A stretch of 44,474 bases of DNA from a bacterium (GTDB taxonomy: Bacteria > Patescibacteriota > Microgenomatia > Daviesbacterales > UBA10151): the NCBI GenBank assembly GCA_030647265.1, contig JAUSJM010000032.1, positions 1-44,474 on the forward strand. The letters are read 5' to 3'. This document shows positions 2,618-44,259 of this stretch, in pieces. The position numbers and the translations under genes were made by a program. Numbering within the stretch: position 1 is the stretch's first letter; each line of letters opens with the position of its first letter. The notes below the pieces were generated by a model that worked only from the letters and a program-made list of their open reading frames with translations, made no database searches and was not told where the DNA came from.

Positions 2618-3025
2618 GTGCCTACCTCTAAAAAAATCCTTCTTGTTGAAGATGAAACTTTTATTGCTGATATCTATGCCAGAGAGCTCAGTAAAGCGGG
2701 TTTTCAGGTCAAGGTAGCCAAAGATGGCACTACCGGGCTGAAAACTTTGGAAGAGGAAAAGTTTGATCTGTTGCTTTTGGATATCATGCTTCCGGGAATT
2801 CACGGACTGGAGTTACTCAGGCAGTGGAAGTTGAAACACCCTGATGACACCATGCCGATTTTACTGCTCACTAACCTGGGGCAGGAAGAGGTCATCAAAG
2901 AAGCTTTTACCTTAGGAGCCCGGGGGTATCTTATTAAAGCTTCTTATACCCCTAAACAAATTGTAGATGAGATTGTCAATGCCATATCAAACAAACCCAT
3001 CGCTCCCCCCGCCCCCTCAGCCTAA
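2618..3025 (+). CDS. Receiver-only response regulator (CheY-like)
   Basis: A 135-aa single receiver domain: acidic pair in LLVEDETF (Glu11/Asp12), phospho-acceptor Asp55 in LLLLDIMLPG, and the conserved Lys in GYLIKAS. There is no DNA-binding or enzymatic output domain, only a short Pro/Ala tail. The start is GTG at 2618; no clear ribosome site is visible. It follows the histidine kinase by 31 bp and is almost certainly its phosphorylation partner. Without an output domain it must act by protein contact or pass phosphate onward; the target is not visible here. It converges with hppA with an 8-bp gap. Confidence 0.88.
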   Translation: MPTSKKILLVEDETFIADIYARELSKAGFQVKVAKDGTTGLKTLEEEKFDLLLLDIMLPGIHGLELLRQWKLKHPDDTMPILLLTNLGQEEVIKEAFTLGARGYLIKASYTPKQIVDEIVNAISNKPIAPPAPSA

Positions 3026-3033
3026 ACCAATCC

Positions 3034-5040: not shown

Positions 5041-5090
5041 CTCCTAAATTTACTATGAGGCCAGCACTCTCGTCAAGGAGGACTTTCCCC

Positions 5091-5121
5091 TAGCCTCACA
5101 AGGACCAACCTTGCAAGGCTA
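5091..5121. repeat. Inverted repeat between hppA and the nucleotidyltransferase gene
   Basis: TAGCCTcaCAAGG and CCTTGcaAGGCTA face each other across ACCAA, giving a 13-bp stem with two mismatched positions. It begins 2 bp beyond the stop of the minus-strand gene at 5124, so it may help end that transcript, though there is no T-run. Confidence 0.45.
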
Positions 5122-5123
5122 AA

Positions 5124-5747
5124 TTAAAGCTCCCTACCTGTTTCAGCTAAAAACTTTCCAAATTCTTCTAAGTTGGTAATTCCTCTCTCTAACACAGCTT
5201 GGTAAATGTCCATGCTAAAAATTTGCTTTCTGTATTTCGGATTTGAGGCTATTTGACTTTTTATTTCTAATATTATTCTTCTTTTATCATCAGTAATCTT
5301 ATTTTTAAGTTCCTCTGTTTTAGCTTTGCCTCTTGCATCTTTTTCAAGTATAAAGTGCAAATCTAACTTCCAAGTTAGTGGATTTGATCCTCGCATTTCA
5401 ATTGGTGTAATATCTTTACCAAAGTACTTTAGTCCAATATAAAGGCTTTGAGGAGAATTAGGATTACTATTATTAAACCTGGCTATATTGTCAGAGAAAG
5501 TAACATCTATCTTATATATGGTTTTTACTACTAATTGTTTTATTACCTCGGCAACTACTTCTTTGTCTAACTTGCCTACAACTATTTCTAAATCTATATC
5601 TCTCCAAGTCATAACTCCTAAGGCCAAACTACCAACAATGTGAGGTTCTCCAAATTCTTTCAAGAGATTCATAAGATCAAGGTCCTCTAAAACACCCTGA
5701 GCCTCTTTTTGTAACTCGTCTTGCTGATTTAAGAGATCATGAGGCAT
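5124..5747 (-). CDS. Nucleotidyltransferase-fold protein
   Basis: A 207-aa soluble protein. The N-terminal half has the polymerase-beta-type nucleotidyltransferase signature: GS in HIVGSLALG followed by the acidic pair DID in TWRDIDLEIVVG (about residues 37-55). The middle (VDVTFSDNIARF-like strand, then GLKYFGKDITPIEMRGSNP) and the helical C-terminus do not match a family I can name. Such proteins transfer nucleotides to small molecules, RNA or partner proteins; the substrate is unknown. No HEPN partner or antitoxin gene is adjacent. The ATG at 5747 lies only 6 nt after a TATAAT box, so its message would be leaderless. Confidence 0.7.
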   Translation of the reverse strand: MPHDLLNQQDELQKEAQGVLEDLDLMNLLKEFGEPHIVGSLALGVMTWRDIDLEIVVGKLDKEVVAEVIKQLVVKTIYKIDVTFSDNIARFNNSNPNSPQSLYIGLKYFGKDITPIEMRGSNPLTWKLDLHFILEKDARGKAKTEELKNKITDDKRRIILEIKSQIASNPKYRKQIFSMDIYQAVLERGITNLEEFGKFLAETGREL

Positions 5748-5753
5748 ATCCTG

Positions 5754-5759
5754 ATTATA
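5754..5759 (-). promoter_or_regulatory. Extended -10 box of the nucleotidyltransferase gene
   Basis: The minus strand reads TGTTATAAT, an extended -10 with TATAAT at 5754-5759, 6 nt before the ATG. No good -35 is seen at 16-18 bp. Confidence 0.45.
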
Positions 5760-5773
5760 ACATTACCTCTACT

Positions 5774-5810
5774 GTCCACCCCCAGGGTGGATTAGCTTGA
5801 CACCTGCGGA
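5774..5810 (+). repeat. REP-like palindromic element, diverged copy C
   Basis: TCCACCC-CCA-GGGTGGA (5775-5791) is followed by ATTAGCTTGACACCTGCGGAT. Compared with copies A (8977) and B (16306), the stem has a compensated T-A to C-G change and the downstream TTGACACCT is retained, so the hairpin is conserved as a structure. It lies between two minus-strand genes. Confidence 0.7.
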
Positions 5811-5875
5811 TTTTCTAAAATGATTGAGGCTAAATTTATACTAAAATTCTGAATAACTTTTTCTGGATAACCTTT

Positions 5876-29514: not shown

Positions 29515-30744
29515 TTACAATTCTCCCTGAAAAGCTTGATGTAAAACTGACTGCTGCAAAGCTTCTAAATCTTGTAATTGTTCTTTCTGAAGTTTTTGCA
29601 AAGATTGCACTTTTTCACTCAAACCATCCAAATACGCCACAATTTTTTCCTGCTCTATTAAGTCTGGCAATGGAACCTCTATCGTCTCAATTCTCATCAA
29701 GGCTAGTTTTGGTTGTCCAACTTGATTTGTTCTCTTCTTAATCTCTTCTTTTCCTTGAGATGAATCAAGAAAATAAACTATAAATCTGTTGTTAACTCCA
29801 TTTTCCTCATTGAAGACAATTTTCGCTGCGTTTTCTGTAAGGTTTGCACCACTTAATTGCGGTGGAACTGTACCTACTGTCCCAATGGTTCCTGCTATTG
29901 AAATATAAGCATCTTTATCTGAAATCGTATAGCGAGAAATTTGTCGCTGGGTTGCGGCCCCTAAATATCTTAAGCCTGCTGTATCAATAGAGTAATCTTT
30001 AAAATCAACAACTCTAATATAGGGATACTCTGTCTTTACGGCTGAAAACTGCTGTCCGGCAGGCAACCTTTTACCCCCTTTGACTTCACTAAAATCTTTT
30101 ATTTCTTTTTTGTTGTACCTTTTACTTAAATCATCAAAAGTTTTCTTTAGCACTGATCGTAAAATTTTCTGAGTTTCCCCTGCTGATTGTTGGCGAACGG
30201 TTCGAGATTCTTCAATTTTTTCCAAAATTGCTTCAAGTTTTTTTACAATTCTTTTTTGATCTTCAATCCCCGGCAGAGGAATTTCTATAAATCCTGATTT
30301 CTCCTTTGTTAAATGAACGCTATCACCAATGATCTTCTTTAATTGATTTTGTCCAAACTCTGAAAGAATATATAACAATAACAGCTTTGGTAAAATTATT
30401 TTAGGACTAGCTCTATAGCAAATTAATTCACTTGCAAAAAATACTTTTTTGAATTGAGATGGTAACTCATCAACTACAACTGCTTCCTCTCCAATTTTTT
30501 CTGAACTGTGACCTGCAGAAGTAATAAGTAAATCTCCAATTTGAACCTTCTTTAATCCTTTCAATGAATCTTCTTTAACAAAACCTTTATCGTTCATGTT
30601 CCAATTAATTCCGTTTTTTGTAATATCTCGATATTTCAGAACCTTATATTCCCCACTATTTAGGTAATCAATTGTTGCAGGTGTTTTACCAACAATAATT
30701 TCTGCAACTTCTCCTAATTTTTTAATTGACCAATTAGTTTTCAT
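29515..30744 (-). CDS. hsdS: Type I restriction-modification specificity subunit
   Basis: The 409-aa DNA-recognition subunit. It has two target-recognition domains, each followed by a conserved helical spacer: the first ends IPLPGIEDQKRIVKKLEAIL (about 170-195) and the second ends VPLPDLIEQEKIVAYLDGLS (about 370-395). This repeat pattern implies a bipartite recognition sequence. The sequence itself cannot be predicted. It overlaps the membrane-protein gene upstream by 4 bp. Confidence 0.93.
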   Translation of the reverse strand: MKTNWSIKKLGEVAEIIVGKTPATIDYLNSGEYKVLKYRDITKNGINWNMNDKGFVKEDSLKGLKKVQIGDLLITSAGHSSEKIGEEAVVVDELPSQFKKVFFASELICYRASPKIILPKLLLLYILSEFGQNQLKKIIGDSVHLTKEKSGFIEIPLPGIEDQKRIVKKLEAILEKIEESRTVRQQSAGETQKILRSVLKKTFDDLSKRYNKKEIKDFSEVKGGKRLPAGQQFSAVKTEYPYIRVVDFKDYSIDTAGLRYLGAATQRQISRYTISDKDAYISIAGTIGTVGTVPPQLSGANLTENAAKIVFNEENGVNNRFIVYFLDSSQGKEEIKKRTNQVGQPKLALMRIETIEVPLPDLIEQEKIVAYLDGLSEKVQSLQKLQKEQLQDLEALQQSVLHQAFQGEL

Positions 30745-31172
30745 TTATCTAATTTAAGAATATTTATATCCTTTTTTGTTAATGAAGTTTTTTCTCCTTG
30801 TAAATTTCTTAGCTCTTTTCTGATAACAATTACCAATTCTTTATAAAAGGTATCTCTTTTATTTTTATCTTTTTTAGAAGAGAAAGTTTCTAAATATTTA
30901 TTCGAGAGCTTTATAACTTCATCAGAAGCATATAAAGGAGCATGCGTGTATAATTCTTCCATAAAGTTTTTTTGCCTTTCTTTATTCTCCCAACCTTCGA
31001 AAAACCCGATAATATTTTCAAGGAAACGCTTATACTGGTCCTCCCTGCGTTCAACTATTCTAAGCTCTATCTCTCTCTTTTTCTCCAAAAAATGATTAAT
31101 ATACGCACCAGAAATACCACCAATTCCAAGTAAACCTAAAATTGATATTGCTGTCTGAATATCAAAATTCAT
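30741..31172 (-). CDS. N-terminally anchored protein inside the hsd operon
   Basis: A 143-aa protein with one N-terminal helix (about 8-26, AISILGLLGIGGISGAYI) followed by a long charged helical region (HFLEKKREIELRIVERREDQYKRF, split here only in description) likely to be coiled-coil. No known family comes to mind. Its stop overlaps hsdS by 4 bp, and the ATPase gene ends 25 bp upstream, so it belongs to the same transcript. Membrane proteins between restriction genes suggest an accessory defence function. Confidence 0.68.
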   Translation of the reverse strand: MNFDIQTAISILGLLGIGGISGAYINHFLEKKREIELRIVERREDQYKRFLENIIGFFEGWENKERQKNFMEELYTHAPLYASDEVIKLSNKYLETFSSKKDKNKRDTFYKELVIVIRKELRNLQGEKTSLTKKDINILKLDK

Positions 31173-31197
31173 AAATTTTTCCAGTTTTTCTTACTAG

Positions 31198-32922
31198 TTA
31201 GTCGTTTTTATTTACGTCTTCTTTTAAATTATTAATGTATTCATTCTGACTCAGAAGAGATATAAACTCACCACCGTCTACAAGTTTTCTAACCTCTCCC
31301 CAAAAATCACCATTTAAACCTAAAATTATTCCCAATACTTCTTTACCAGGAATCCATTTCCAATCTTTCGATGAAACAACGCTATCAAACTTCTTCTGAA
31401 GCTCTTCTTGATTAAGTGAAAGTTCTGAGGCTTTGCTTTTCCAGTCGTCAAGTTCCTCAACTGTTCCTTTTGGGAAATACTCATATTTAAACTTTCTTAA
31501 AACAATATTTTTGACGGCAGTACTAACTAAGCTTTTAAAAAGACTTTCTTTTTTGTTGTTAATTTGTTCCCAAACCAAATCATTTCCAGATTTCGAATTA
31601 CCTTTCGGGATTATTCTATTCAGTAATTCTGGGATCAGGAAAATATTCTCAATTTCCCAAAATGGTAGGTTAAATATTCCTTTTGCGGCGTCATTTTGAG
31701 GGGTATTAGGAGGAAATCCATCCGAAGAATTTATTTGTCTGTCACCATCGAATAAGATTGATAACTTAATAGGAGTAATGTTTCTATTAACATCTTGCAA
31801 CACTTCAACTCGGGCCTCAGCTCTACTTTTTAGAGTTCCAAAAGACCAAAATCTCTTCTTAATATCTTTTCCAAAAATCCAACTCAATAACTCTCTAGTT
31901 TTTGGAGCATTCTCACCTTTTAAAGTAGTTTCTGGATCATTCTCTGCACATACCCAGTGCGAAGTAAAAAAAGATGGGTCTATGGGAAGTCCAAGTTGAT
32001 CCACTACTTTTTCAATTTCTTCATTAACCTCAATATTTTTAATCTCCCCTTTTGCTAAAAGCACAATATTCGCTTCATTTAGAAAATGATGGAGTATATC
32101 TCCCGAATGGGTAGCTATTAAAACTTGGTTTTCTTTTGCCAACAAGCTTATTAATTCGCAAAGTTTTCTTATCTGACTACTATGTAAGTGTAATTCAGGC
32201 TCATCAATTAAAATTATTTTTTCTTTCTCATCCCGTACTCTATATAAGAAAGCAAGAAAGTAAAGATATTCTTTTTCTCCAGCACTTAAATCAGTTAACT
32301 GAACTTCTCTATTTAAGTAATCAAGAAAAAACGCCGGAGGATCTCGATCAAAATCAATTTTTATACTTTTTTCGAAATCAACAAGGCCCAATTGATAATG
32401 ATCCTCTATTTTTTTTGTAAGTTCAGGGACTTTTTGCCCTGAATCTTTTATTACTCTAAGTAGTTCTGAAATAACTGCTTTATTAAATTCATCGACAATG
32501 TTTATTTCTTCAGTTTGGTCAGAAATTGTAAAATCAGAGATTGATTTAAATGGATTAGCTGTCGCAAGTTGACCCTTTACAGATCTGTCCGAGCTGATGA
32601 ATTTGATTTTATTTTGTAGCCTGTCCGAACTTTGCCAAGAGCCATTTTTTAAAAACGCTACTGTCTGTTGATTATTAACATCTTTTATAGAAATATAGAC
32701 CAACTGTTCATCAGTTATCTTTTCGATTTCACTTTTTGATGATTCTGGATTATATCCTTGCTGATTTTTTGAAGCATTATCTATCATTTTCAAAGATCTT
32801 GTTTTTCCACTACCATTTTTCCCTAGCAGTAAGTTGACACCAGGTTTTAGGTTTGCTTCTCCCTTAAAAGCTAAGGGACCATACCAACGCACAATAATTT
32901 TCTCTAAATAAAAATTGGTCAT
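31198..32922 (-). CDS. AAA/ABC-type ATPase with DUF4435/OLD-like C-terminus
   Basis: A 574-aa P-loop ATPase. Walker A is LGKNGSGKTRSLK (residues 34-41), the ABC-type signature LSAGEKEYLYFLAFL, Walker B IILIDEPELHLHSSQ and the switch His in ATHSGDIL follow. The C-terminal part (LSILFDGDRQI, then FNLPFWEIENIFLIPELL) looks like the DUF4435/TOPRIM-like end of OLD-class defence ATPases, from memory of the pattern. It overlaps hsdM by 4 bp and sits between hsdM and hsdS. It is probably an accessory antiphage or regulatory component of the type I system. Confidence 0.82.
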   Translation of the reverse strand: MTNFYLEKIIVRWYGPLAFKGEANLKPGVNLLLGKNGSGKTRSLKMIDNASKNQQGYNPESSKSEIEKITDEQLVYISIKDVNNQQTVAFLKNGSWQSSDRLQNKIKFISSDRSVKGQLATANPFKSISDFTISDQTEEINIVDEFNKAVISELLRVIKDSGQKVPELTKKIEDHYQLGLVDFEKSIKIDFDRDPPAFFLDYLNREVQLTDLSAGEKEYLYFLAFLYRVRDEKEKIILIDEPELHLHSSQIRKLCELISLLAKENQVLIATHSGDILHHFLNEANIVLLAKGEIKNIEVNEEIEKVVDQLGLPIDPSFFTSHWVCAENDPETTLKGENAPKTRELLSWIFGKDIKKRFWSFGTLKSRAEARVEVLQDVNRNITPIKLSILFDGDRQINSSDGFPPNTPQNDAAKGIFNLPFWEIENIFLIPELLNRIIPKGNSKSGNDLVWEQINNKKESLFKSLVSTAVKNIVLRKFKYEYFPKGTVEELDDWKSKASELSLNQEELQKKFDSVVSSKDWKWIPGKEVLGIILGLNGDFWGEVRKLVDGGEFISLLSQNEYINNLKEDVNKND

Positions 32923-34349
32923 ATTAAATTCTCAATCTCTGAAATAAGTTTTTGTATATCCTTTTCGTTCTCCTTAATGGATTTAAGTATTTGCTCGGGT
33001 GATTTATGTTCTGTATCACCTTTTCCATTTGGATTTTTGGCGGATAAATCATAGTTTTTACCTACAATCTCCTCTGCTGAAACTACCCAAGAATTTTCTG
33101 AAATTTCTCGCTTTTGGTATTTTGTAAAAGCATCTTTTGTGTGATCATCTAAAATTGGGCTTTTCTTGGTGTATTTAACACCAGAGGGTGGAGTAAGCTC
33201 GTAGTACCAGATTTCTTTGGTTGGTATGCCTTTTTCAAAAAATAATAAATTTGTTTTTGGTCCTTGACCAGAGGAGGAAACATTGGCAAAAACCCCTGGC
33301 GGAAGACTGATAATAGTATGCAGATTAAAATTCTCTAATAGTTCTTTTTTAAGATTGGTATAAACACCTCCTGTACGGAAAAGTATGCCTTCCGGTAGAA
33401 CGATTCCACAACGGCCTCCAGTTTTCAATTTTTTCATTACATAGAAAAGTGCCAAAAGTTCAGTATCCGAACTTTTGAGAGGAAAACTTTTTAAAAGTTC
33501 CTTTCCCTCCACACCGCCAAAAGGCGGATTAGTTAGGATAATTTCAAAACGTTCCCGCTCCGGAATAGAAGTTAAATCTTCTGCAAAGGTGTTAGTTTTG
33601 ATTAGGTGAGGAGATTGTAGACCGTGCAAAAGTAAATTCATTATTCCAAGCAAAAACGGTAATGATTTCGCTTCGTTGCCAAAAAAAGTCTCATTTTGAA
33701 GTGTCGAAAAATCTTTGGCAGTCATTTTTGGATTTTTCTCTTTTAAATATTTGAAAGCTTCACCCAAAAACCCACCAGATCCCGCGAATGGATCGTAAAT
33801 TCTCTCACCAATTTTGGGATCAATAATTTTAACCATCAAGCGAATGATTGCTCTTGGAGTATAAAACTCTCCTGATGCTCCGCTTTCCTGACCCATTTTA
33901 AGAAGCAATTCTTCATAAACTTGGGAGATTATATGTGTATCAGCTGGGTCTGAAAAATCTAAATCATCTAGTAGGTTGACTACATCTTTAAAGTTAAATG
34001 GTGAGTGCATATTGTTGCGTAAATCTTCAAAAAGAGCAGAAACAATATCCTTGAGCGGTGTACCATGAAGGTTTTGTAAGTAGGGGAAGAGTTTAGTGTT
34101 TACAAATTCAAGTTGATCTTTTGCTTCTAGGTTATGCCAAGCAGACCATTGATATTTTTCATCCATAACCGGTTGATAACTTTCACCAAAAACTTGCGCT
34201 CCGAGTTTACTTTTACGCTCAATTTGTTCAAAAAGTTTTAAGAAAAGCATCCAGGATACTTGTTCAATATATTGAAGAAGATACAGTTTATCTCTGCGCA
34301 TAATATCGCACGCAGACCAAATTTTGTTCGAAAGCGTTTGTCTATCCAT
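32919..34349 (-). CDS. hsdM: Type I restriction-modification methyltransferase subunit
   Basis: A 476-aa N6-adenine methyltransferase. The N-terminal helical HsdM domain (LSNKIWSACDIMRRDKL, LFLKLFEQIE) is followed by the SAM-binding fold with FYTPRAIIRLMV, DPFAGSGGFLGEAF (motif I) and ILTNPPFGG (motif IV). It pairs with HsdS to methylate the host site. It overlaps hsdR by 8 bp and the ATPase gene by 4 bp. Confidence 0.94.
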   Translation of the reverse strand: MDRQTLSNKIWSACDIMRRDKLYLLQYIEQVSWMLFLKLFEQIERKSKLGAQVFGESYQPVMDEKYQWSAWHNLEAKDQLEFVNTKLFPYLQNLHGTPLKDIVSALFEDLRNNMHSPFNFKDVVNLLDDLDFSDPADTHIISQVYEELLLKMGQESGASGEFYTPRAIIRLMVKIIDPKIGERIYDPFAGSGGFLGEAFKYLKEKNPKMTAKDFSTLQNETFFGNEAKSLPFLLGIMNLLLHGLQSPHLIKTNTFAEDLTSIPERERFEIILTNPPFGGVEGKELLKSFPLKSSDTELLALFYVMKKLKTGGRCGIVLPEGILFRTGGVYTNLKKELLENFNLHTIISLPPGVFANVSSSGQGPKTNLLFFEKGIPTKEIWYYELTPPSGVKYTKKSPILDDHTKDAFTKYQKREISENSWVVSAEEIVGKNYDLSAKNPNGKGDTEHKSPEQILKSIKENEKDIQKLISEIENLI

Positions 34350-36858
34350 TCAATGTCCCTTGATAAAGATATTCTTGAAGCTTCTTTATAGTCGCTGTTG
34401 CATTTTCTGGACCCCCGAGATTTTCTATAATTTTTTCAATTCCCATCTCCTGAAATTTCGGCAAGTTGAAAACTTCTTTTCTGGAAATATCTTCGATTCC
34501 ACCTACACGGTATTGATCAAGAAGAGCCAAAAGTATTGGCTGGGCTTCTTTTCCTAAGGATGAAAGAAATTCTTGTTTTCGTAGTTCTATTGCCCGAGCT
34601 CTTTCATCCCGACTGATAATTGGTGCATCAAAAGCAATATGGGCAAGTATATCGAAGAAATCTGCATCTTCTCGATCCAAAAGTTTTGCTAAGGCATCTG
34701 GTGAAACACTTATGTTTTTTAATTTTCCAATGAATTCTTTTCTTCTTTGCTCATCAATCCAAATATTTTCAAGGTCACCTAAAGTTATCCCTAGTTTTTC
34801 AACCTCTTTTCTGGAATATTCTTTATATTCTGCTGCCTTTAAGTGATTACCACCAACATCAAAGGTAAGATCAGATGTTGAGTGAATATAAACATCTACA
34901 CCACCGAGAGTAATTTTGGCTGGAGCTTTACGCTCTGGTTTTAGTTCGTAAATTTCTGGTTGAGGTTCTAAGGTTGGGGTAATTCTTAGTTCCCTGCGAG
35001 TAAAACCAGTGGCAGAAATCTGTAACGTTACTTTGACTGCTGGCAAGCCTTCAAAAGAAAACATCCCCATTTCGTTGGTTGTAGTCTGTACATGTTCATA
35101 ATTTTTGGTAACTACTGTTACCTTAGCACCAATTATAGGAGTATCAGTTTTAGAGATGACAACCTTACCTTCAAGGAAATAATCTAACGGCCCCAATTCT
35201 TCCTCCTCAGGCTCTTCTGTATCCGGTGGGGTTAATTGTGAAAAAAGCCTGGTTGCATTAACGTAATCAATTATTCTAAAGAAATATTTACCTGTTGCTT
35301 CATCAATTCTTGATCCACGGCCAATAATTTGATTAAACAGAACTACTGAGGAGATGGGTTTAATCAGGACCACGTTTTTTACAGATGGAATATCAACACC
35401 TGTTGAAAGAAGATCAACTGTAGTTGCTATAACTGGTGTTTTCTTTTCCGAATCCTTGAAAGCATCTGTAAGGTCTCTTGCGTTTGTTTCTTCGGAAACT
35501 ATGGTTACCGCATAATCATTTTTTCCTTCTGCGGAAAAGTGATTTTGCAAAAGTTTTGTCATTTCCCGAGCGTGATCGTTATTAACACAAAAAACTATTG
35601 TTTTCTCAAATGTTCCAAATTTCTTAAGAAGTCCGGCTAGATGTTCAGCAATCCTTTTAGTTAAGTTTGGGATAGCAACTTTTCTTTCAAACTCACCCGA
35701 AGAATAAAAAGTTTTAATCTCATCATCAAACTCTTCGGGATAGAATATTTCAGCTCCTTGTAAACGTTGTTCTTCAACATCAACACCACCTTCTTTGTGA
35801 AGATTGGTAATTACTCTTTGAATTAAGTAATTTGCTAGAAAGCCATCTTTAATTCCTTGCTGAATATCATATTCAAAAACTGGTTCACCAAAATATTTAT
35901 ATGTATCAACATTGTCGGTTCGCTTTGGGGTAGCAGTCATTCCAAGGTGTATTGCAGAGGAGAAATATTTCAAAATATCATGCCACAGATTCCAACCAGA
36001 GCGATGACATTCATCAATGATTATCAAATCAAAAAAGTCCGGGGGGTAATTTTCAAAAAGCTTCTTACCATTTTTTTGAGAATAAAGGGTTTGATAGGTA
36101 GTAAAGTAAACATCACGAACTTGATCAGCTTTGCCTTCTTCTATTTTGTAACGAGCATCCTTAAAAGGTTCAAACTCAAAAGTGTGAGCCTGATCCCTAA
36201 GCATTGTACGGTCTGCCACAAAAAGAATTCTTTTAAAGTAGCCAGAGTTGTATAGTTTCCAAGCAGCTTGAAAAGCTACCTTAGTTTTTCCCGACCCTGT
36301 TGCCATTGCTACCAAAACTCTTTTGTTCCCATTTACGATCGATTCAATGATTTTTTGGATTGCCTTGAGTTGGTAATAACGAGGATTCTTTCCGACAAGA
36401 GAATGATGCAGGGGGTATTCAAGAGGATTTTTCTCTAATTTTTTAGCAAGGGTTTTATTGAAACTGACTAAACGGGAATAAAGCTCATCTGGGGTTGGGA
36501 ATTTTTCTATAGTTGTTTGCGTATTTGTTGTAAAATCAAATTCTTCAATACAATGACCATTAGTTGAATAAATAAAAAGAACTTCCAGTTTCTGTGCGTA
36601 ATCTTTGGCTTGCTGTATACCATCAAGCGGTGTATGGCTTTCGTCTTTAGCTTCTATTATGGCAATCGGGAAGGCTTCATTGTGCATCAGTAAATAATCA
36701 GCAATCTTTTTATCGTCACGAATAACTTGATCACCAAAAATGTTGACTTTGCCAGCTGTAATTTGGAATTCACGCAAAATATTCCTATCTTCCCAGCCAG
36801 AAGATTCGATTTTTGGATCAATCAATTTTGCTCTGGTATCTGCTTCATTTAAGTTCAT
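34342..36858 (-). CDS. hsdR: Type I restriction endonuclease subunit with inserted beta-sandwich domain
   Basis: The 838-aa motor/nuclease subunit. The N-terminal PD-(D/E)xK nuclease has Asp54 (KIADYLLM) and Glu69-x-Lys71 (AIIEAKDE). The SF2 helicase follows with Walker A MATGSGKTK (195-203), DECH (292-295), TATPKRTDN (318-326) and motif VI IIGRGSRID (521-529). Residues about 571-642 are an unexpected carboxypeptidase-regulatory/Ig-like beta-sandwich (GKVVISKTDTPIIGAKVTVV ending ATGFTRRELRIT), after which the usual C-terminal helical region resumes. First gene of the operon; a weak promoter TTGTTT-17-TAAAAT lies upstream. Confidence 0.93.
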   Translation of the reverse strand: MNLNEADTRAKLIDPKIESSGWEDRNILREFQITAGKVNIFGDQVIRDDKKIADYLLMHNEAFPIAIIEAKDESHTPLDGIQQAKDYAQKLEVLFIYSTNGHCIEEFDFTTNTQTTIEKFPTPDELYSRLVSFNKTLAKKLEKNPLEYPLHHSLVGKNPRYYQLKAIQKIIESIVNGNKRVLVAMATGSGKTKVAFQAAWKLYNSGYFKRILFVADRTMLRDQAHTFEFEPFKDARYKIEEGKADQVRDVYFTTYQTLYSQKNGKKLFENYPPDFFDLIIIDECHRSGWNLWHDILKYFSSAIHLGMTATPKRTDNVDTYKYFGEPVFEYDIQQGIKDGFLANYLIQRVITNLHKEGGVDVEEQRLQGAEIFYPEEFDDEIKTFYSSGEFERKVAIPNLTKRIAEHLAGLLKKFGTFEKTIVFCVNNDHAREMTKLLQNHFSAEGKNDYAVTIVSEETNARDLTDAFKDSEKKTPVIATTVDLLSTGVDIPSVKNVVLIKPISSVVLFNQIIGRGSRIDEATGKYFFRIIDYVNATRLFSQLTPPDTEEPEEEELGPLDYFLEGKVVISKTDTPIIGAKVTVVTKNYEHVQTTTNEMGMFSFEGLPAVKVTLQISATGFTRRELRITPTLEPQPEIYELKPERKAPAKITLGGVDVYIHSTSDLTFDVGGNHLKAAEYKEYSRKEVEKLGITLGDLENIWIDEQRRKEFIGKLKNISVSPDALAKLLDREDADFFDILAHIAFDAPIISRDERARAIELRKQEFLSSLGKEAQPILLALLDQYRVGGIEDISRKEVFNLPKFQEMGIEKIIENLGGPENATATIKKLQEYLYQGTLNG
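34933..35148 (-). other. Carboxypeptidase-regulatory-like domain inside HsdR
   Basis: Codes HsdR residues about 571-642. The pattern G-x-V, then GAKVTV, TTTNEMGMFSFEGLP, VTLQISATGF is the canonical CarboxypepD_reg / Cna-B-type order, normally found in surface and secreted proteins. It is flanked by a Glu-rich linker (TEEPEEEELG) on one side and a Pro-rich one on the other, as expected of an independent module. Confidence 0.7.
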
Positions 36859-36924: not shown

Positions 36925-36952
36925 TTGTAAAAAGGTTTTGAAGTACTATGAT
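36925..36952 (+). promoter_or_regulatory. Possible promoter of the HtrA-like protease
   Basis: -35 TTGTAA (36925-36930), 16-bp spacer, -10 TATGAT (36947-36952). Start near 36959 would leave a leader with GGAGGGGTGAT, a strong ribosome site, before ATG 36978. Confidence 0.4.
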
Positions 36953-36977
36953 TATCCTAAGAAGTGGAGGGGTGATC

Positions 36978-38240
36978 ATGAAAAATCCTTTGAAGAAAAT
37001 CAGGAAATTTTTGGGGAAACTACTTCTCAGATTAAGATTGTATTTTAGAAAACTTCTTTTTCCTATTTATCTTTTTCCATTAAAGATTGCTACCTATTCC
37101 CTTTATTACCTCTTGTTATTTTTGATCAAATTAATCCTGGCTTTGTTGGGGCTTCTTTTTGACGCCCTAAAATACCCCTTTAAATCCATGAAGCACTTTT
37201 TAAAATTTGCCCTGCTTCTGTCAGCATCTTTATACCTTGTAGCATCGCTGTTTGTAATCGGAGATTATCTAACCAAACAATATGGTTGGTGGGGTAAGTT
37301 TTTCTGCGCCTACGGAACAAAGGAAAAGTTATTAGGCTCGGTTGTCAGAGTTGTGGGTGGTTATTCCGAAGGCTCGGGCTTTTTTATCTCTGAAACCTCG
37401 GTCTTAACCAACTTCCATGTTATTGCCGATGAACCCAGCCCGAAAATTATTTTTCCTGACGGGAGTTTTACCACCCCTGTTAAAATCCTGGGTGATAAAA
37501 ATGCCGATTTGGCACTTCTTTTTACCGATAAAAAGTACCCTGAAAAAGTTTTAACCATACCTGATAAAGTAAAACTCTACGCAGATGAACCGTTGACCGC
37601 TGCAGGTTATCCTCTGGGAACCGAATTAACCGGGAAAGCTACCACGGTAAAGGGTAACTTTATCGATTTCCGTCATTCTAAAATCGATCCGGTCTATTAC
37701 ATCCAGACCAATGTCAGTTTAGTACCAGGTATGAGCGGCGGGCCTCTAACCGATCAGTGCGGGACAGTGGTGGGAGTAAATACCACGAGTCTGGCCGGAA
37801 TGTCACTTTTTATCGGGGCGGACCAGGCAAGGGACATGGTCCCGACTCTGACCGACCAGGGAGTAACCAAGATAGAGGTTGATCCTTCTTCCTCCCCGGA
37901 AGGCTCGGTTAAAGCTTTTTACACTTACCTTAAAGCCAGGAGGATGGAAGACGGTTTTAAACTGTTAAGCCGAGAATACCTTAAGAAAACTAATTTCCAG
38001 GAATGGACCAATAGGTTTAAAGATATTCTGGATGTTGATGTCATTAAATCGGAAAAGTTTGAAAAGTCCTCTGACACCGCTTTTGTTAAGTTTTCCACCA
38101 AAAACTGGGTAGACAATGAGGCGGAGTTCCACTTCTACGAAGGAACCTGGCAAACACTCAGAGAAGACGGAGTTTTTAAGATGCTTAAAAGCAACATCAA
38201 AGAGGTCGAAAACCCCGATTATTCCTGGCTTTATGAATAA
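36978..38240 (+). CDS. Membrane-bound HtrA/DegP-like trypsin-fold protease
   Basis: A 420-aa protein. ATG at 36978 is preferred over 36948 because GGAGGGGTGAT precedes it. The N-terminus is very basic (KNPLKKIRKFLGKLLLRLRL) and followed by about three hydrophobic segments to residue 95. The protease domain has catalytic His (TNFHVIAD), Asp (NADLALLF) and Ser (VPGMSGGPLTDQCGTVVG). There is no PDZ domain; instead the C-terminus (from about 300, GSVKAFYTYLKARRMEDGFK) looks NTF2-like. It probably acts outside the membrane in quality control or surface-protein processing, next to the polysaccharide locus. Confidence 0.85.
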   Translation: MKNPLKKIRKFLGKLLLRLRLYFRKLLFPIYLFPLKIATYSLYYLLLFLIKLILALLGLLFDALKYPFKSMKHFLKFALLLSASLYLVASLFVIGDYLTKQYGWWGKFFCAYGTKEKLLGSVVRVVGGYSEGSGFFISETSVLTNFHVIADEPSPKIIFPDGSFTTPVKILGDKNADLALLFTDKKYPEKVLTIPDKVKLYADEPLTAAGYPLGTELTGKATTVKGNFIDFRHSKIDPVYYIQTNVSLVPGMSGGPLTDQCGTVVGVNTTSLAGMSLFIGADQARDMVPTLTDQGVTKIEVDPSSSPEGSVKAFYTYLKARRMEDGFKLLSREYLKKTNFQEWTNRFKDILDVDVIKSEKFEKSSDTAFVKFSTKNWVDNEAEFHFYEGTWQTLREDGVFKMLKSNIKEVENPDYSWLYE

Positions 38241-38366: not shown

Positions 38367-39287
38367 ATGACTAATCTCAAAATTTGTATTGTCGGGCCGG
38401 GAATCGTCGGCCAGGCTACAGGAAAAGCATTCCTCGCCAAAGGTTTTGAGATAACATTTGTCGGTGTTGACCCGAAAAATATCACCGACCTGCGCCACGA
38501 AGGGTATAACGCCAACCTTGTCAACGAAGTCTTCAACGGCAACTATAATTTTGATGTCACATTTTTAACAGTTCCTACCCCCACTCTGGATGGAAAGATT
38601 GATATATCAGCCCTCAAAGATGCCTCTATAAATCTAGGAAAAAATTTGGCTCACTCTGACAAATATCATTTAGTAGTTGTAAAAAGCACCGTTCTCCCCG
38701 GAACTACTGAAAATATGGTTATTAAGTATATTGAAAAATATTCTAAAAAAAGGGCAGGACCGGACTTTGGTGTTTGTATGAATCCGGAATATTTAAGGGA
38801 AAAAACAGCTGACGAAGATGCTTTAAATCCATGGCTTATTTTAATCGGGGAATATGATAAAAAATCAGGGTATATCTTAAGCGAAATTTACCGGGATTTT
38901 GATGGGCCAATTTACCGCGTCAGTATTACTGAAGCAGAGATCCAAAAATATATTCACAATTTGTTTAACGCGACAAAGATAACTTTCTTTAACGAGATGC
39001 GTCAGATCGGCCAGAAGATGGGCATAAATATCGAGAAGGTCTTTAATTTAACAAGCTTAAGTGCAGAAGGTGTCTGGAATCACACCTACGGCATAAAAGA
39101 TAAAGGTCCTTTTTCAGGTAAATGTCTGCCTAAAGATACCCAGGCATTTTTTTCCTGGGCAGAGGAAAACGGTTTTGATGCCAAGCTTTTGAAGTCTGTA
39201 ATCGAAGTTAACGAAAAAATAAAAACAAAGAAATTCTTCTCTCATCAAGCCAAGTCAGAACACGAGCGCAGTCATCTTCCTCTGTAG
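38367..39287 (+). CDS. Short UDP-glucose/GDP-mannose 6-dehydrogenase
   Basis: Oxidises a nucleotide sugar to its uronic acid with two NAD+. The Rossmann motif VGPGIVGQATG (about 9-19), TVPTP and VVKSTVLPGTT blocks, NPEYLREKTA, and the catalytic Cys in GPFSGKCLPKDTQAF are all present. At 306 aa it is far shorter than usual members: it stops soon after the catalytic Cys and lacks the C-terminal nucleotide-sugar-binding domain. The next gene starts 15 bp later, so the domain is not lost to a frameshift nearby. CLPKD (not CFPKD) hints at GDP-mannose, but substrate choice is uncertain. Context supports supply of uronate to the synthase. Confidence 0.85.
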   Translation: MTNLKICIVGPGIVGQATGKAFLAKGFEITFVGVDPKNITDLRHEGYNANLVNEVFNGNYNFDVTFLTVPTPTLDGKIDISALKDASINLGKNLAHSDKYHLVVVKSTVLPGTTENMVIKYIEKYSKKRAGPDFGVCMNPEYLREKTADEDALNPWLILIGEYDKKSGYILSEIYRDFDGPIYRVSITEAEIQKYIHNLFNATKITFFNEMRQIGQKMGINIEKVFNLTSLSAEGVWNHTYGIKDKGPFSGKCLPKDTQAFFSWAEENGFDAKLLKSVIEVNEKIKTKKFFSHQAKSEHERSHLPL

Positions 39288-39302
39288 CTTTTAGGGGGAA
39301 AT

Positions 39303-42182
39303 ATGCAGGAAATTATTAATGAAGCATGGTTCTTTCTGCAGCAATATCTAGACCTTCATCGTTTTTTGGTACCTTTGGGAATCTTAGGTCTATGGCGTTG
39401 GGGGGTGTGGGTTTTTAAAAAAGTGATAGCCCTCCGTTATCGTCCCTCCAAGCAAACTTACTGGGCCACAACTTCCATCATCACTCCGGTCTATAATGAA
39501 AATCCTCAAATCTTTAAACAAGCCCTCTATTCCTGGATCTCTAATCAGCCGACAGAGATAATTGCCGTTGTTGATTCCTCAGACCAACCTTGCATTCAAA
39601 TCATGGAAAAAATTCAGCAGGAATTTACCAATGTCCGATTAATAGTCACCAACAAGCCCGGTAAAAGACCGGCTTTGGCCGATGGTATTTTGGCAGCCAA
39701 AGGCGAGATTGTGGCCTTAGTTGACAGTGATACCATCTGGTCAGAAGGTGTCCTGGATAATAGTCTGGCCCCCTTTAAAGATCAAAAAGTAGCCGGAGTT
39801 GCCACTTACCAAAACGTCCTCAACCCCAAAACAATCGCTCAAAAAATTTTTGATACCCAGCTTGATCTTCGTTATTGTGACGACTTCCCTTTTTTGGCTG
39901 CTGCAGGAAACGCCCTGGTTTGCCTTTCCGGACGAACCGCTTTTTACCGGCGGGATGTTGTTCTCCCCCTTCTTGATGATCTGGTCAATGAAACATTTTT
40001 AGGCACACCGGTAGTCAGCGGTGATGATAAGAGGTTAACTTATCTAGTATTGGCCCGGGGTTGGAAACTGGCTTATCAAGCAAACGTCCATGTTTATACT
40101 CCCGGAATGGCGGATATGGGCTCTTATTTAAAACAGCGGCTCCGTTGGTCAAGAAATAGCCTCCGAGCAGACATAAGAGCTATGATTGAAGGTTGGACAT
40201 GGCATTATCCGGCCTTAGCTTTCTTTCAAGTTGATAAAGTATTTCAAACTTTTGCCATCATTGTCAGTCCGATCTATTTTGTCATTTCCCTAATCCTAGG
40301 GCTTTGGATACCGGCAGGGATAATACTTGTTTGGTGGCTTGTCAGCCGGAGCGTTAAGATGTACCCCCATTTAAGACGCCGTCCCCAAGATTTGAAGATA
40401 CTCCCTATCTTTGTGCTTTATTCATTCTTAACCGCCATTATCAAACTTTATGCTTTCTTTACTTTAAATACCCAGGGGTGGATTACCAGATGGGATAAAT
40501 CACGTCTGCCGAGGTTTCGTTTTCTTCGAGAGGTACCAGCATATCTGGCAACCATCATCACAGTTTGTCTCTTCGGAGTGGGAATCTATTATTACCAGCA
40601 ACAAACTTATTTTCTTCCTCTTGCCCAGCGTCAGCAGCTCATTGCCAAAGCATTAGCTGAAGACATGCCGGCCCGATTTTCTGCCACTCAAACCGAAAGC
40701 ACACAAACTGTTCCTACTGCAGATTTACTGGTCAAACGATATACCGTGACTCAAGGGGATACTCTTTATAGTATCGCTGCAAAATTTGAGATTGACCAAT
40801 CTGACCTTCTGGCAGCCAACATAAGCCGGATTCCCAACTGGAACAATCTCGAACCGGGAGCAGTACTCAGTGTTCCCGGCAAAGATACCCATCTAACCCT
40901 GCCTTCTAACTTCAACTACCAAAGAATATACGCCGATCCCAAACGGATAACCTATACTGCAACAACTAATACCATCGAAATTTTTGGCCGCGGTCAAATT
41001 ATTGATTTGGCCGAAATCAGCACCGAGGTGGGGAAAGAACACCTTGAAGAAGTTTCCCCAGGAGTCTGGTTTCTAAAGTCCAATATCTTTTTACATTCGG
41101 GAACAACTTTAAACCTGGATCGTGACCAGGTTAAATGGCTCCGCATGAAAAGCGATAGCGGGGGCTATATTAATATATTAGCTTACAACGCCGTGCTTTT
41201 TACCAACGGGGTGCAAGTTACCTCTTGGGATGAACAAAACAACGATGCTGATAAAAATATGCAGGATGGACGAAGTTTTATCTTGGCCAAAGACAGCTCG
41301 AGGATGGACCTTTACAACAGCGAGTTTGCTTATCTTGGATTTCCCCGCACTCCGGATTTGACAGCCTCACCATACGGAGTGTCCTGGAGAATGAGTAACG
41401 GAAAACGTGGGACCGCCCTGCTTACAGGGGAGGTCATCAACAGCGATTTCCATAATAATTACTTTGGCGCCTATACTTTCGGCGCCACCGGAATTACCTG
41501 GCAGGATAATAAGTTTCATGACAATGTCCGTTACGGACTCGATACTCACGATGATTCAAACGGATTTTTAGTGGAAGGAAACATGGCCTACAACAACGGC
41601 AGTCATGGCATTATTTTTTCCAAACGCTGTGTTAATAATGTTATCCGCAACAATTTATCCTTTAACAATAAAGTTCACGGCATCATGCTGCACGAGCAAT
41701 CAAGTAACAATATCGTTGAAGACAACACGGCAAGCGGTAACGGAGAAGGAGGTGTTGTTATGTGGCACTCCAGCAACAACGTTGTCCGGAATAATAAAAT
41801 CTATGACAGCAAGTTGGGCATCAGGGCAAATGTCGGATCAAACAATAATTTGTTGGAGGGAAACAATATTTCCGGAATCTCCCAATATGCCATCTATCTT
41901 TATGACGGGGCAACTAATAATACTATCCGCCAAAATTCTTTAGTCAACAATAACCACGGTATTTACCTTAAATCCCCCAACAATATTGTTGAAAACAATG
42001 TCTTAAAGTATAACCAAACCGGCATTTACCTTACGGGGGATGCCCGGGAAAATGTAATTTCCCAAAACCAGATTATTTATAGCAAGCAATATGGTGTTTA
42101 TTCAAAAATATCTTCCGACCAACACAATTTCTTAAAAGACAACGAGTTTAAGAGAAACCGGAGAGATTTATTTGCGGTTTAA
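39303..42182 (+). CDS. Fused polysaccharide synthase (GT2) - LysM - AlgG-like C5-epimerase
   Basis: A 959-aa fusion. Residues 1-432 form a processive family-2 glycosyltransferase: first helix about 21-38, DSSD (91-94), DSD (141-143), GDD (240-242), QRLRW (278-282), then four helices and an interfacial QGWITRWDKSR segment. A LysM follows (about 479-525, YTVTQGDTLYSIAAKF). Residues about 545-959 are a right-handed beta-helix of AlgG type: YGVSW, the catalytic-type D-T-H-D (747-750, in VRYGLDTHDDSNGF; Pro replaced by Thr), and GSHGIIFSKRC. It would polymerise and export a polyuronate, anchor to peptidoglycan and epimerise residues outside. Ribosome site AGGGGGAA. Confidence 0.88.
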   Translation: MQEIINEAWFFLQQYLDLHRFLVPLGILGLWRWGVWVFKKVIALRYRPSKQTYWATTSIITPVYNENPQIFKQALYSWISNQPTEIIAVVDSSDQPCIQIMEKIQQEFTNVRLIVTNKPGKRPALADGILAAKGEIVALVDSDTIWSEGVLDNSLAPFKDQKVAGVATYQNVLNPKTIAQKIFDTQLDLRYCDDFPFLAAAGNALVCLSGRTAFYRRDVVLPLLDDLVNETFLGTPVVSGDDKRLTYLVLARGWKLAYQANVHVYTPGMADMGSYLKQRLRWSRNSLRADIRAMIEGWTWHYPALAFFQVDKVFQTFAIIVSPIYFVISLILGLWIPAGIILVWWLVSRSVKMYPHLRRRPQDLKILPIFVLYSFLTAIIKLYAFFTLNTQGWITRWDKSRLPRFRFLREVPAYLATIITVCLFGVGIYYYQQQTYFLPLAQRQQLIAKALAEDMPARFSATQTESTQTVPTADLLVKRYTVTQGDTLYSIAAKFEIDQSDLLAANISRIPNWNNLEPGAVLSVPGKDTHLTLPSNFNYQRIYADPKRITYTATTNTIEIFGRGQIIDLAEISTEVGKEHLEEVSPGVWFLKSNIFLHSGTTLNLDRDQVKWLRMKSDSGGYINILAYNAVLFTNGVQVTSWDEQNNDADKNMQDGRSFILAKDSSRMDLYNSEFAYLGFPRTPDLTASPYGVSWRMSNGKRGTALLTGEVINSDFHNNYFGAYTFGATGITWQDNKFHDNVRYGLDTHDDSNGFLVEGNMAYNNGSHGIIFSKRCVNNVIRNNLSFNNKVHGIMLHEQSSNNIVEDNTASGNGEGGVVMWHSSNNVVRNNKIYDSKLGIRANVGSNNNLLEGNNISGISQYAIYLYDGATNNTIRQNSLVNNNHGIYLKSPNNIVENNVLKYNQTGIYLTGDARENVISQNQIIYSKQYGVYSKISSDQHNFLKDNEFKRNRRDLFAV

Positions 42183-42186
42183 AAAA

Positions 42187-43329
42187 ATGAATGTTTTAAA
42201 TAGAAGCTTTTTACTTTTAGCAGTGCTATTTTTCCTGGTGATGTTGGGGATTTTCGTCTATTCCCTCTTTCTCCAAAGTTCCCCCAGTCTCGGACCAGAC
42301 TTTCAAAGCGTTTCTCCAAAGACTGTCATCGCCTATTATGTCAGTCCCTCGGGAGATGATAATAACAACGGTAAATCTGTAAGTTTACCCTTTAAAACAA
42401 TCCAAAAAGCTGTTGATTTAGCCCAGCCCGGTGAAACCATCCAGCTTGCCCCCGGGATTTACCTGCAAGATGTGGTCACCAAACGCGACGGGAAGAAAGA
42501 TGCTCCCATTGTCATTAGTGGTCCGACTGAGGCCATTGTCCAAGGCGGGGGCAGGGACAGGATTTTTGAAATTCACCACAATAATATTTTTTTACAGGGA
42601 TTTACCGTTAATGGGCACTTTTCTCAAACAGATTCTACTTCCGGATACCGCAGCAAACTTCTCTACATTCAAGGAAAAGGAGTCAAGGCAGGGGTCACGG
42701 GATTAAAAATCACCGGCATGACTATAAAAAATTCCGCAGGTGAATGTGTACGCCTCCGCTACTTTGCTCAAAATAACGAAGTCTCCCATAACAACATCCA
42801 AAACTGTGGGGTTGACGATTTCCTCTTTAATGGGGGAGGAAAAAACGGTGAGGGTATTTACATCGGCACCGCTCCCGAACAGTTAAAAGACAGGAAAAAC
42901 CCCACCGCTGATCCGGACCAATCCAACAACAACTGGATTCATGACAATAATATCAACACTCAAGGTAATGAATGCGTCGATATTAAGGAAGCCTCTTCAG
43001 GCAACATCGTGGAGAATAATAAATGCACCGGACAAATGGATCCGAAATCAGGGGGTATGGATTCAAGGGGCAGCAAGAACTCTTTTCGTAACAATATAAT
43101 CTTTGGAAATTTAGGCGCCGGAATCCGTTTAGGAGGTGACAAAATTACCGACGGAATTGATAACAATGTGTACGGCAACATTATTAAAGACAACCAGTCC
43201 GGGGGAATAAAATTCGAAAGAATAACTCAGGGAAAAATTTGCAGCAATATCATGTCAGGAAATATCGATGGTAATACGGTGGGCACTTTCGGAATACTGT
43301 TTAAACCAACCTCAAATTGCCCAAACTAA
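42187..43329 (+). CDS. Anchored right-handed beta-helix protein (polysaccharide lyase/epimerase candidate)
   Basis: ATG at 42187, 4 bp after the synthase stop, gives 380 aa. An N-terminal signal anchor (about 7-28) is followed by a DUF1565-like beta-helix entry (YYVSPSGDDNNNG, PFKTIQKAVDLAQPGETIQL, APGIY) and parallel beta-helix repeats with many Asn ladders. Lys in CVDIKEASSGN and Arg in GGMDSRGSKN are placed somewhat like the Lys/Arg pair of PL6-type lyases; this is tentative. It may cleave, modify or bind the polymer made by the upstream fusion. It ends base-to-base with the convergent PL7 gene. Confidence 0.8.
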   Translation: MNVLNRSFLLLAVLFFLVMLGIFVYSLFLQSSPSLGPDFQSVSPKTVIAYYVSPSGDDNNNGKSVSLPFKTIQKAVDLAQPGETIQLAPGIYLQDVVTKRDGKKDAPIVISGPTEAIVQGGGRDRIFEIHHNNIFLQGFTVNGHFSQTDSTSGYRSKLLYIQGKGVKAGVTGLKITGMTIKNSAGECVRLRYFAQNNEVSHNNIQNCGVDDFLFNGGGKNGEGIYIGTAPEQLKDRKNPTADPDQSNNNWIHDNNINTQGNECVDIKEASSGNIVENNKCTGQMDPKSGGMDSRGSKNSFRNNIIFGNLGAGIRLGGDKITDGIDNNVYGNIIKDNQSGGIKFERITQGKICSNIMSGNIDGNTVGTFGILFKPTSNCPN

Positions 43330-44259
43330 TTATTGATGGGTGACAGCGGCCTGATAAACAACAACCTCACCAAAGTTTCCGTCACTACAAAGTGATGAAC
43401 CTTCCTTGCTGCAGTTTGACTGGGTATAGGCTCCGGTTTTAAAGTAAGCACCGGAATAACTTTTGTCTAAAATATAGACAGAACTGCTCCCTCCGTTGTA
43501 ATAAACCTTTGTCTTTCCACTCCCTACCTCAAATTTGACGTTAAACCTTTTTCCCAAGGTGTAATTTGAATCAATGGTAAAGACATTTGAGCCGTTAACA
43601 TTGACATAAAGATTGGGATACTCTAAACGGATAACAACGACATCATCATCTGCATCATGGATTTGACCGGCCACAACATGTTTTTTAGTCTGGGGAACAG
43701 CAGTAATTGCCTCATCAAGAAACATGGTGTGAGTGCCTGTTGTAGAAGACCAACTGGCATTTTCCGCTCCCCCACCGGTCATCTCCCGGAGTTCGGAACG
43801 GGGATACTTTGAACCGCTGGTAGTTACACCGTTTACCGGCGCCCTAAAACGCAGGCCGCCTCCACTGGGCAAAAACCAGGGATCCATTATATAGGAAGAA
43901 AGTGTCGGTTGTTTTATTTCCGTAGGATGTCCGGAAGAGCCAATAGGAAGTGTTAATTTCCAGTTCAAGAGGTTTATGGTTTGGACAGATGAGGCCTCCT
44001 TTTGAGGAGCAGGTGAGGGAGTAGGTGTAGGAGTGGAGGTAGGAGTAACACTTAAAATTTTAGCTTCTTGGGGCTTGATAGGAAAAGGGTTAGAAACAAC
44101 AGCGGCACTTTTTGAAGTTTTACTATCTGCTTCAATCCTGGTATTAAAAAATAGTTTCTGGGAAAAAGCTGCTGTTACTAGAATTAATAGGACAGCCAGG
44201 CTGTAATATTTGGGGTGGGAAAAAAATTTCCGGGCAGGCTTTAGTACAGATTTAAACAT
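43330..44259 (-). CDS. PL7-family alginate lyase, membrane-anchored
   Basis: A 309-aa polysaccharide lyase. N-terminal anchor (about 19-36), Thr/Pro/Ser linker (VTPTSTPTPTPSPAP) and a PL7 jelly-roll from about residue 93 (INLLNWKLTLPIG). All three catalytic blocks are present: YPRSELREM (Arg154), GQIHD (Gln199, His201) and YFKTGAYTQ (Tyr288). In PL7 the QIH form is associated with polyguluronate or mixed blocks rather than polymannuronate. Transcribed toward the synthesis genes from its own promoter, it could trim or release the nascent polymer. Two Cys near the C-terminus may form a disulfide. Confidence 0.9.
   Translation of the reverse strand: MFKSVLKPARKFFSHPKYYSLAVLLILVTAAFSQKLFFNTRIEADSKTSKSAAVVSNPFPIKPQEAKILSVTPTSTPTPTPSPAPQKEASSVQTINLLNWKLTLPIGSSGHPTEIKQPTLSSYIMDPWFLPSGGGLRFRAPVNGVTTSGSKYPRSELREMTGGGAENASWSSTTGTHTMFLDEAITAVPQTKKHVVAGQIHDADDDVVVIRLEYPNLYVNVNGSNVFTIDSNYTLGKRFNVKFEVGSGKTKVYYNGGSSSVYILDKSYSGAYFKTGAYTQSNCSKEGSSLCSDGNFGEVVVYQAAVTHQ

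Follow-up and report, generated by a model that had tools for sequence, protein, structure and literature searches.

A short dehydrogenase and a synthase-epimerase fusion in a probable alginate-type pathway of Patescibacteria

The locus and its enzymes

The window analysed here is the entire 44,474-base stretch of contig JAUSJM010000032.1 (assembly GCA_030647265.1), which comes from a patescibacterium of the order Daviesbacterales whose draft genome comprises 785 kb in 35 contigs and is 92% complete. The last 6 kb of this window carry a compact four-gene locus (Table 1) encoding a short nucleotide-sugar dehydrogenase, a fusion protein that joins a family 2 glycosyltransferase (GT2) synthase to a LysM domain and an AlgG-like epimerase domain, a second beta-helix protein and a PL7 alginate lyase. 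An initial annotation had placed these four genes at positions 38367-44259, and all are confirmed there. Its assignments of a CLPKD-containing dehydrogenase, a processive GT2 synthase, an AlgG-type epimerase with a D-x-H-D motif, a second beta-helix protein and a PL7 lyase with three motifs all agree with the matches given below, and the domain boundaries it proposed for the fusion are about right; the absence of a C-terminal domain from the dehydrogenase and the presence of LysM between synthase and epimerase had escaped it. The 15-bp gap between the dehydrogenase and fusion genes contains AGGGGGA, which resembles a ribosome-binding site and suggests that the two genes may share one transcript. 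The open reading frame for the second beta-helix protein overlaps the 3' end of the fusion gene.

The dehydrogenase matches the Pfam N-terminal and central domains of its superfamily (4.2e-30 and 1.1e-21, respectively) and ends about 50 residues past the catalytic cysteine. A Pfam search found the C-terminal nucleotide-binding domain PF03720 neither in this protein nor elsewhere in the window genome. The catalytic Cys, Lys, Asn and Glu residues of GDP-mannose dehydrogenase (GMD) are nevertheless retained together with both N-terminal domains. All complete relatives are similarly short, at 274-340 amino acids (aa), with cut or shortened copies of 229-241 aa, and therefore the truncation is a family trait rather than damage.

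The top PDB profile match of the dehydrogenase is the GMD of Pseudomonas aeruginosa (1mfz, 237.9 bits), compared with 216 bits for the best UDP-glucose dehydrogenase. Its profile scores 200-205 bits against AlgD of Rhizobium and 77-174 bits against other full-length dehydrogenases; these AlgD references lie unannotated in plasmid alginate-type operons and were assigned from gene order and similarity. In a phylogenetic tree the short dehydrogenases form a single clade (98) with AlgD as its neighbour. The predicted fold agrees with GMD over its length at a template modelling (TM) score of 0.88 and 2.6 A, whereas the others among the matches listed reach at most 0.69. By fold, the protein is thus nearer to GMD than to UDP-glucose dehydrogenases by a clear margin.

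The GMD of the brown alga Ectocarpus, studied by Tenhaken et al. in 2011, reportedly lacks the C-terminal domain as well and is specific for GDP-mannose. Two GMDs of Saccharina, 320 and 315 aa long, carry GxGxVG close to the N terminus and GGxCLPKDV around residue 259, and both produce GDP-mannuronate when assayed (PMC4782291). The residues that distinguish algal from bacterial GMDs include Val in GxGxVG and Pro five positions before the cysteine (PMC4782291). The short family matches both of these departures, and the lengths are likewise alike. At the GxGxVG position, where full-length references carry Tyr or His, 49 of 50 family members have Val, Ile or Phe (mostly Val, with Ile in the window), and Pro occurs at Cys-5 in 47 of 50 and in none of the full-length references. 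In addition, a 2024 survey (PMC11468063) gives a Woesebacteriota protein with 40% identity as the closest bacterial relative of brown-algal GMD by BLAST. The dehydrogenase is probably a GDP-mannose 6-dehydrogenase of the short, brown-algal type.

The synthase part of the fusion is recognised by PF13641 (1.6e-29), and its DxD, G-D-K and Q..RW motifs are invariant among 37 full-length relatives. By hydropathy and predicted fold, the catalytic domain is surrounded and followed by four to five membrane helices. The initial annotation had named Alg8, hyaluronan synthases and cellulose synthases as comparisons for this part. The hyaluronan-synthase likeness holds, at 118 bits by PDB profile against 31 bits for cellulose synthase, and there is no firm grouping with poly-N-acetylglucosamine (PNAG) synthases, for which the NCBIfam model gives only 47 bits. 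A relationship with Alg8 does not hold, as the GT2 profile scores 97-102 bits against Alg8 and 202 bits against a hyaluronan-synthase-like protein. Hyaluronan synthases, NodC and actinobacterial GT2s are all closer to the synthase than Alg8 is. In the GT2 tree the relatives from Patescibacteria, Chloroflexota and Nitrososphaerota stand together, apart from the hyaluronan-synthase-like and NodC references; the position of Alg8 is unsure because its branch is very long. Hyaluronan synthases translocate their own polymer, and an enzyme of this kind would therefore suit a single-membrane cell.

The predicted structure of the fusion has a mean predicted local distance difference test (pLDDT) value of 88.9, and its top fold matches are AlgG and hyaluronan synthase, one for each half. 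The beta-helix domain matches the NCBIfam AlgG model at 2.7e-39 with 135 bits, which is short of the equivalog cut-off of 700 bits, and we therefore describe it as AlgG-like and not as an AlgG orthologue. As a single protein it matches AlgG structures in the PDB at 1.2e-30, and a profile of 45 relatives scores 199 bits against AlgG, 82 against AlgE4 and 42 against NosD. The initial annotation had raised NosD-like helices as an alternative affiliation, and the region groups with AlgG instead. Roles have been assigned to the AlgG tyrosine that precedes the motif and to the histidine of DPHD (PMC4444821). The corresponding positions are near-invariant in the 45 relatives, with Tyr744 kept in 44, the histidine in 44 and D747 in 43. 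LysM and AlgG-like domains are extracytoplasmic in other systems, and for this reason the C-terminal half of the fusion is likely to lie outside the cell, with LysM as a probable peptidoglycan anchor.

The lyase is matched by PF08787 (2e-41) and contains RSELR, QIH and YFKTGAYTQ; QIH is kept in 14 of the 16 PL7 lyases that lie near related GT2 genes. Its best PDB match is the polyguluronate lyase 1uai (2.4e-67), with the glucuronan lyase 7nde at 1.3e-7. The second beta-helix protein has only DUF1565 and beta-helix matches in Pfam and NCBIfam. A test for a lyase function of this protein gave only a xylosidase as a weak PDB match, confined to the N-terminal part, and Pel9A-like Pfam matches in 2 of 20 members.

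Table 1. Features of the locus (positions in the window)
Feature	Position	Strand	Evidence or remark
Short nucleoside diphosphate (NDP)-sugar 6-dehydrogenase, probable GDP-mannose type, 306 aa	38367..39287	+	NAD and central domains; PDB profile, fold
Catalytic CLPKD of the dehydrogenase (Cys253; aa 253-257)	39123..39137	+	Cys conserved in 48 of the 50 family sequences aligned
AGGGGGA, ribosome-binding-site-like	39293..39299	+	Sequence; within the gap after the dehydrogenase stop
Synthase-LysM-epimerase fusion, 959 aa	39303..42182	+	Pfam, NCBIfam, PDB, predicted fold
Membrane-spanning GT2 synthase part, aa 14-430; D141xD143, GDDK 240-243, Q278RLRW282	39342..40592	+
LysM, aa 480-525, probable peptidoglycan anchor	40740..40877	+	PF01476, 1.1e-11
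AlgG-like right-handed beta-helix C5-epimerase domain, aa 548-959	40944..42179	+	NCBIfam, PDB, predicted fold
Catalytic DTHD, aa 747-750, with Tyr744 before it	41541..41552	+	Family alignment
Second secreted or anchored beta-helix protein (DUF1565), 385 aa	42172..43329; likely ATG 42187	+
PL7 alginate lyase with N-terminal membrane anchor or signal, 309 aa	44259-43330	-	Convergent to the operon

Conservation, linkage and spread

There are 79 loci in a profile-based (alignment) scan of 84,980 species genomes. A contig scan of genomes with a single window protein as query gave no match, and a scan of viral sequences with the fusion as query gave no relative. The loci come from many lineages of Microgenomates and Parcubacteria. 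They include Levy-, Curtiss-, Davies-, Roizman-, Ames- and Woesebacteria, kin that bear out the patescibacterial host proposed in the initial annotation, together with WWE3, Moran-, Falkow-, Staskawicz-, Nomura- and Taylorbacteria, Peribacteria, Saccharibacteria, Chloroflexota and Nitrososphaerota. The fusion is 47-57% identical in the first relatives of the same class, where the short dehydrogenase adjoins it too, and the GT2 part is 42-68% identical across 44 relatives. The trait is patchy, as only 3 of 380 evenly sampled genomes of the phylum carry the full fusion, the window genome included.

Conservation of the gene order, for which the initial annotation had called for a survey of related genomes, is strong. 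The dehydrogenase lies within 300 bp of 57 of the 70 related GT2 genes, and this pair recurs across so many lineages that chance is not the explanation. The epimerase is fused to the GT2 in 47 of the 70, and an epimerase-like protein is fused or nearby in 61. Less regular neighbours are relatives of the second beta-helix protein (23/70), the PL7 lyase (16/70), a protein with an fn3 domain (13 loci) and a sortase (10 loci). Saccharibacteria, most Chloroflexota and Nitrososphaerota encode the parts by separate genes, and divergence among the epimerase-like proteins is greatest in the archaea (49-90 bits). In Nitrososphaerales (L091-L100) the short dehydrogenase that adjoins the related GT2 is divergent, and several of these loci have a beta-helix protein a few kb off.

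Some occurrences deserve separate mention. Two bins titled Curtissbacteria and Daviesbacteria (L040 and L041) share an identical dehydrogenase and GT2, which reflects either recent transfer or mis-binning. On a contig filed as viral (L131, IMGVR_UViG_3300010885_087330), genes for a short dehydrogenase, a GT2 (PF13632) and a PL7 lyase follow one another at 2971-6202; if this is truly a phage, it may remodel an alginate-like capsule of its host. On three further viral contigs (L130, L133 and L134), dehydrogenases that belong to the short clade lie next to ParB-like and glycosyltransferase-like genes. A Curtobacterium plasmid (L124, 6917-11488) encodes a GT2 related to the synthase, a glycosyl hydrolase and a full-length dehydrogenase.

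Just upstream of the locus, the window encodes a membrane-anchored trypsin-like protease (36948-38240), for which no linkage to the module is seen in relatives. A type I restriction system occupies 29515-36858 on the minus strand. A gene for an AAA_15-type ATPase and a small gene lie between HsdM and HsdS of this system, and its HsdR has a carboxypeptidase-regulatory-like domain at aa 562-626.

Proposed pathway and alternative explanations

We consider it likely that these genes encode a compressed alginate-type pathway in a single-membrane cell, made up of a short GMD, a hyaluronan-synthase-like synthase, a tethered epimerase and a PL7 lyase. The dehydrogenase would convert GDP-mannose to GDP-mannuronate, and the GT2 part would polymerise mannuronate on the cytoplasmic side of the membrane and thread the chain through its own channel. 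LysM would hold the fusion at the peptidoglycan on the outer face, where the tethered AlgG-like beta-helix may convert some of the mannuronate to guluronate while the chain emerges. Perhaps the anchored PL7 lyase then trims or releases the polymer. We infer this substrate, polymer, topology and order of events, as well as the roles of the lyase and the second beta-helix protein. Alginate is favoured over another uronan, a choice that the initial annotation had left open, because the dehydrogenase is AlgD-like, short and of the brown-algal type.

Several points weigh against this proposal. The enzymes and their product are known here only through sequence and models, and the likeness to brown-algal GMD is drawn from published lengths, motifs and a single BLAST statement. 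The margin by which the dehydrogenase scores better against GMD than against UDP-glucose dehydrogenases is modest at the sequence level, and the window epimerase reads DTHD where the family consensus is DPHD. The GT2 part is nearer to hyaluronan synthases, which use UDP sugars, than to Alg8, and its presumed use of GDP-mannuronate goes beyond what the sequence indicates. Precursor supply is a further difficulty. A few family searches identified GalU in the window genome, as well as a 235-aa protein that fits mannose-1-phosphate guanylyltransferase best, at 173 bits and below a cut-off set for longer proteins. The same searches found no phosphoglucomutase or phosphomannomutase (PGM/PMM) in this genome, and the nucleotidyltransferase domain PF00483 was found in none of three fusion carriers (G016, G356 and G419), one of them 99% complete. 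The precursor route is thus incomplete by these searches. One conjecture is that carriers may take nucleotide sugars or their precursors from hosts, a supply that alone would not discriminate between GDP-mannose and UDP-glucose.

The kinship of the GT2 with UDP-sugar enzymes makes a glucuronan-type product possible. In such a case a UDP-glucose dehydrogenase would feed a GT2 that polymerises glucuronate, and the epimerase would generate another epimerised polyuronate, such as a glucuronan that comes to contain iduronate. The presence of GalU and the appearance of the glucuronan lyase 7nde among the PL7 matches are compatible with this product. However, the dehydrogenase sides with AlgD in sequence, tree and fold and shares its truncation and distinctive residues with brown-algal GMD, the lyase is much nearer to the polyguluronate lyase, and the epimerase is closest to mannuronan epimerases, so that we regard this outcome as unlikely. 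A more remote prospect is an alternating, hyaluronan-like heteropolymer whose uronate is epimerised by the beta-helix, which might be expected from the fact that the closest solved synthases are bifunctional hyaluronan synthases. This is improbable, as the synthase has a single NDP-sugar enzyme as a regular neighbour. Furthermore, uronate homopolymers are the substrates of PL7 and AlgG-like enzymes, and PL7 genes recur near the related GT2 genes.

Two other explanations would remove the polymer or the epimerisation altogether, and both seem to us very improbable. The locus could be a decaying, horizontally acquired cluster that makes no polymer, with the dehydrogenase as an inactive, degenerate remnant. 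Loss of the C-terminal domain would fit such decay, as would the few relatives in which the fusion gene is split (L058 and L061) or interrupted by a stop codon (G013 contig 15). Yet the truncated form is family-wide and keeps its catalytic residues, brown-algal enzymes of equal length are active, and the fusion reading frame is open in the window and in 39 full-length relatives. Alternatively, the beta-helix joined to the synthase might serve as an adhesin or as a scaffold that binds polymer, not as an epimerase. Adhesins often contain repeat beta-helices, and the NCBIfam score is well under the AlgG cut-off; set against this are the preference for AlgG over NosD, the near-invariant Tyr, His and Asp, and the AlgG fold match. 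The observations of the initial annotation are thus confirmed, and its interpretation as a minimal alginate-like pathway is supported with the corrections noted above.

Relation to known systems and implications

Classical bacterial alginate synthesis is found in Pseudomonas, Azotobacter and their relatives, where about a dozen genes act across two membranes. The bacterial pathway compared here (Pseudomonas, Azotobacter, Rhizobium) consists of AlgD, Alg8, Alg44, AlgG, AlgK/E, AlgX/J/F/I and AlgL. The module resembles it in having a dehydrogenase nearest to AlgD, an AlgG-like epimerase and a lyase in the locus. It differs in that its dehydrogenase is without the C-terminal domain, its synthase is no relative of Alg8, its epimerase is fused to the synthase, and its lyase belongs to PL7 and not to PL5 like the usual AlgL. 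In addition, the window genome yielded no PilZ domain, which in Alg44 senses cyclic di-GMP (c-di-GMP), and genes for periplasmic or outer-membrane export and for acetylation were recognised neither at the window locus nor among the recurrent neighbours in relatives.

By published description, the brown-algal pathway of Ectocarpus and Saccharina shares with the module a GMD of about 315-320 aa that ends soon after the region of the catalytic cysteine, Val in GxGxVG, Pro before the active-site loop and, in its ManC5-E epimerases, DPHD (PMC4782291 and PMC11468063), whereas the module is a prokaryotic two-gene unit. Class I hyaluronan synthases (HasA and the Chlorella virus enzyme) share the GT2 fold, GDD, QxxRW and the combination of polymerisation and translocation in one protein. 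Unlike them, the module synthase is fused to LysM and an epimerase and is linked to a GMD-type dehydrogenase, and alternating sugars are not expected of it. The window lyase has the fold family, RSELR, QIH and YFKxGxYxQ in common with PL7 polyguluronate lyases such as 1uai, and differs from them in its N-terminal membrane anchor and in adjoining a synthesis locus.

The initial annotation knew of no alginate synthesis in this group, and the papers searched on alginate in the candidate phyla radiation (CPR)/Patescibacteria or Thaumarchaeota likewise contain no description of the module. What is new, and supported by the evidence above, is a probable alginate-type pathway that combines a different synthase family with a fused epimerase and a short dehydrogenase of the brown-algal type. 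No brown-algal mannuronan synthase has been validated according to PMC11468063, which also describes the brown-algal GT2s as unlike Alg8. It is conceivable, though we hold the idea only tentatively and think it somewhat doubtful, that an undescribed alginate lineage in Patescibacteria, Chloroflexota and Nitrososphaerota, made up of a short GMD, a mannuronan synthase of hyaluronan-synthase-like kind and an epimerase fused to it or adjacent, gave brown algae their GMD and possibly the type of their synthase. If true, this lineage would show where to look for the mannuronan synthase still missing from the seaweed pathway. The module GT2 is a concrete and testable model for that enzyme. The nearest known bacterial relatives of brown-algal GMD, represented by the Woesebacteriota protein in PMC11468063, would also gain a functional setting.

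A fused synthase-epimerase would be useful for making alginate of set composition. For the organisms themselves, the module would polymerise, export and epimerise a chain with one fused protein and one dehydrogenase. Ultra-small cells of this kind are usually without much biosynthesis, and related gene sets reach into the archaea.

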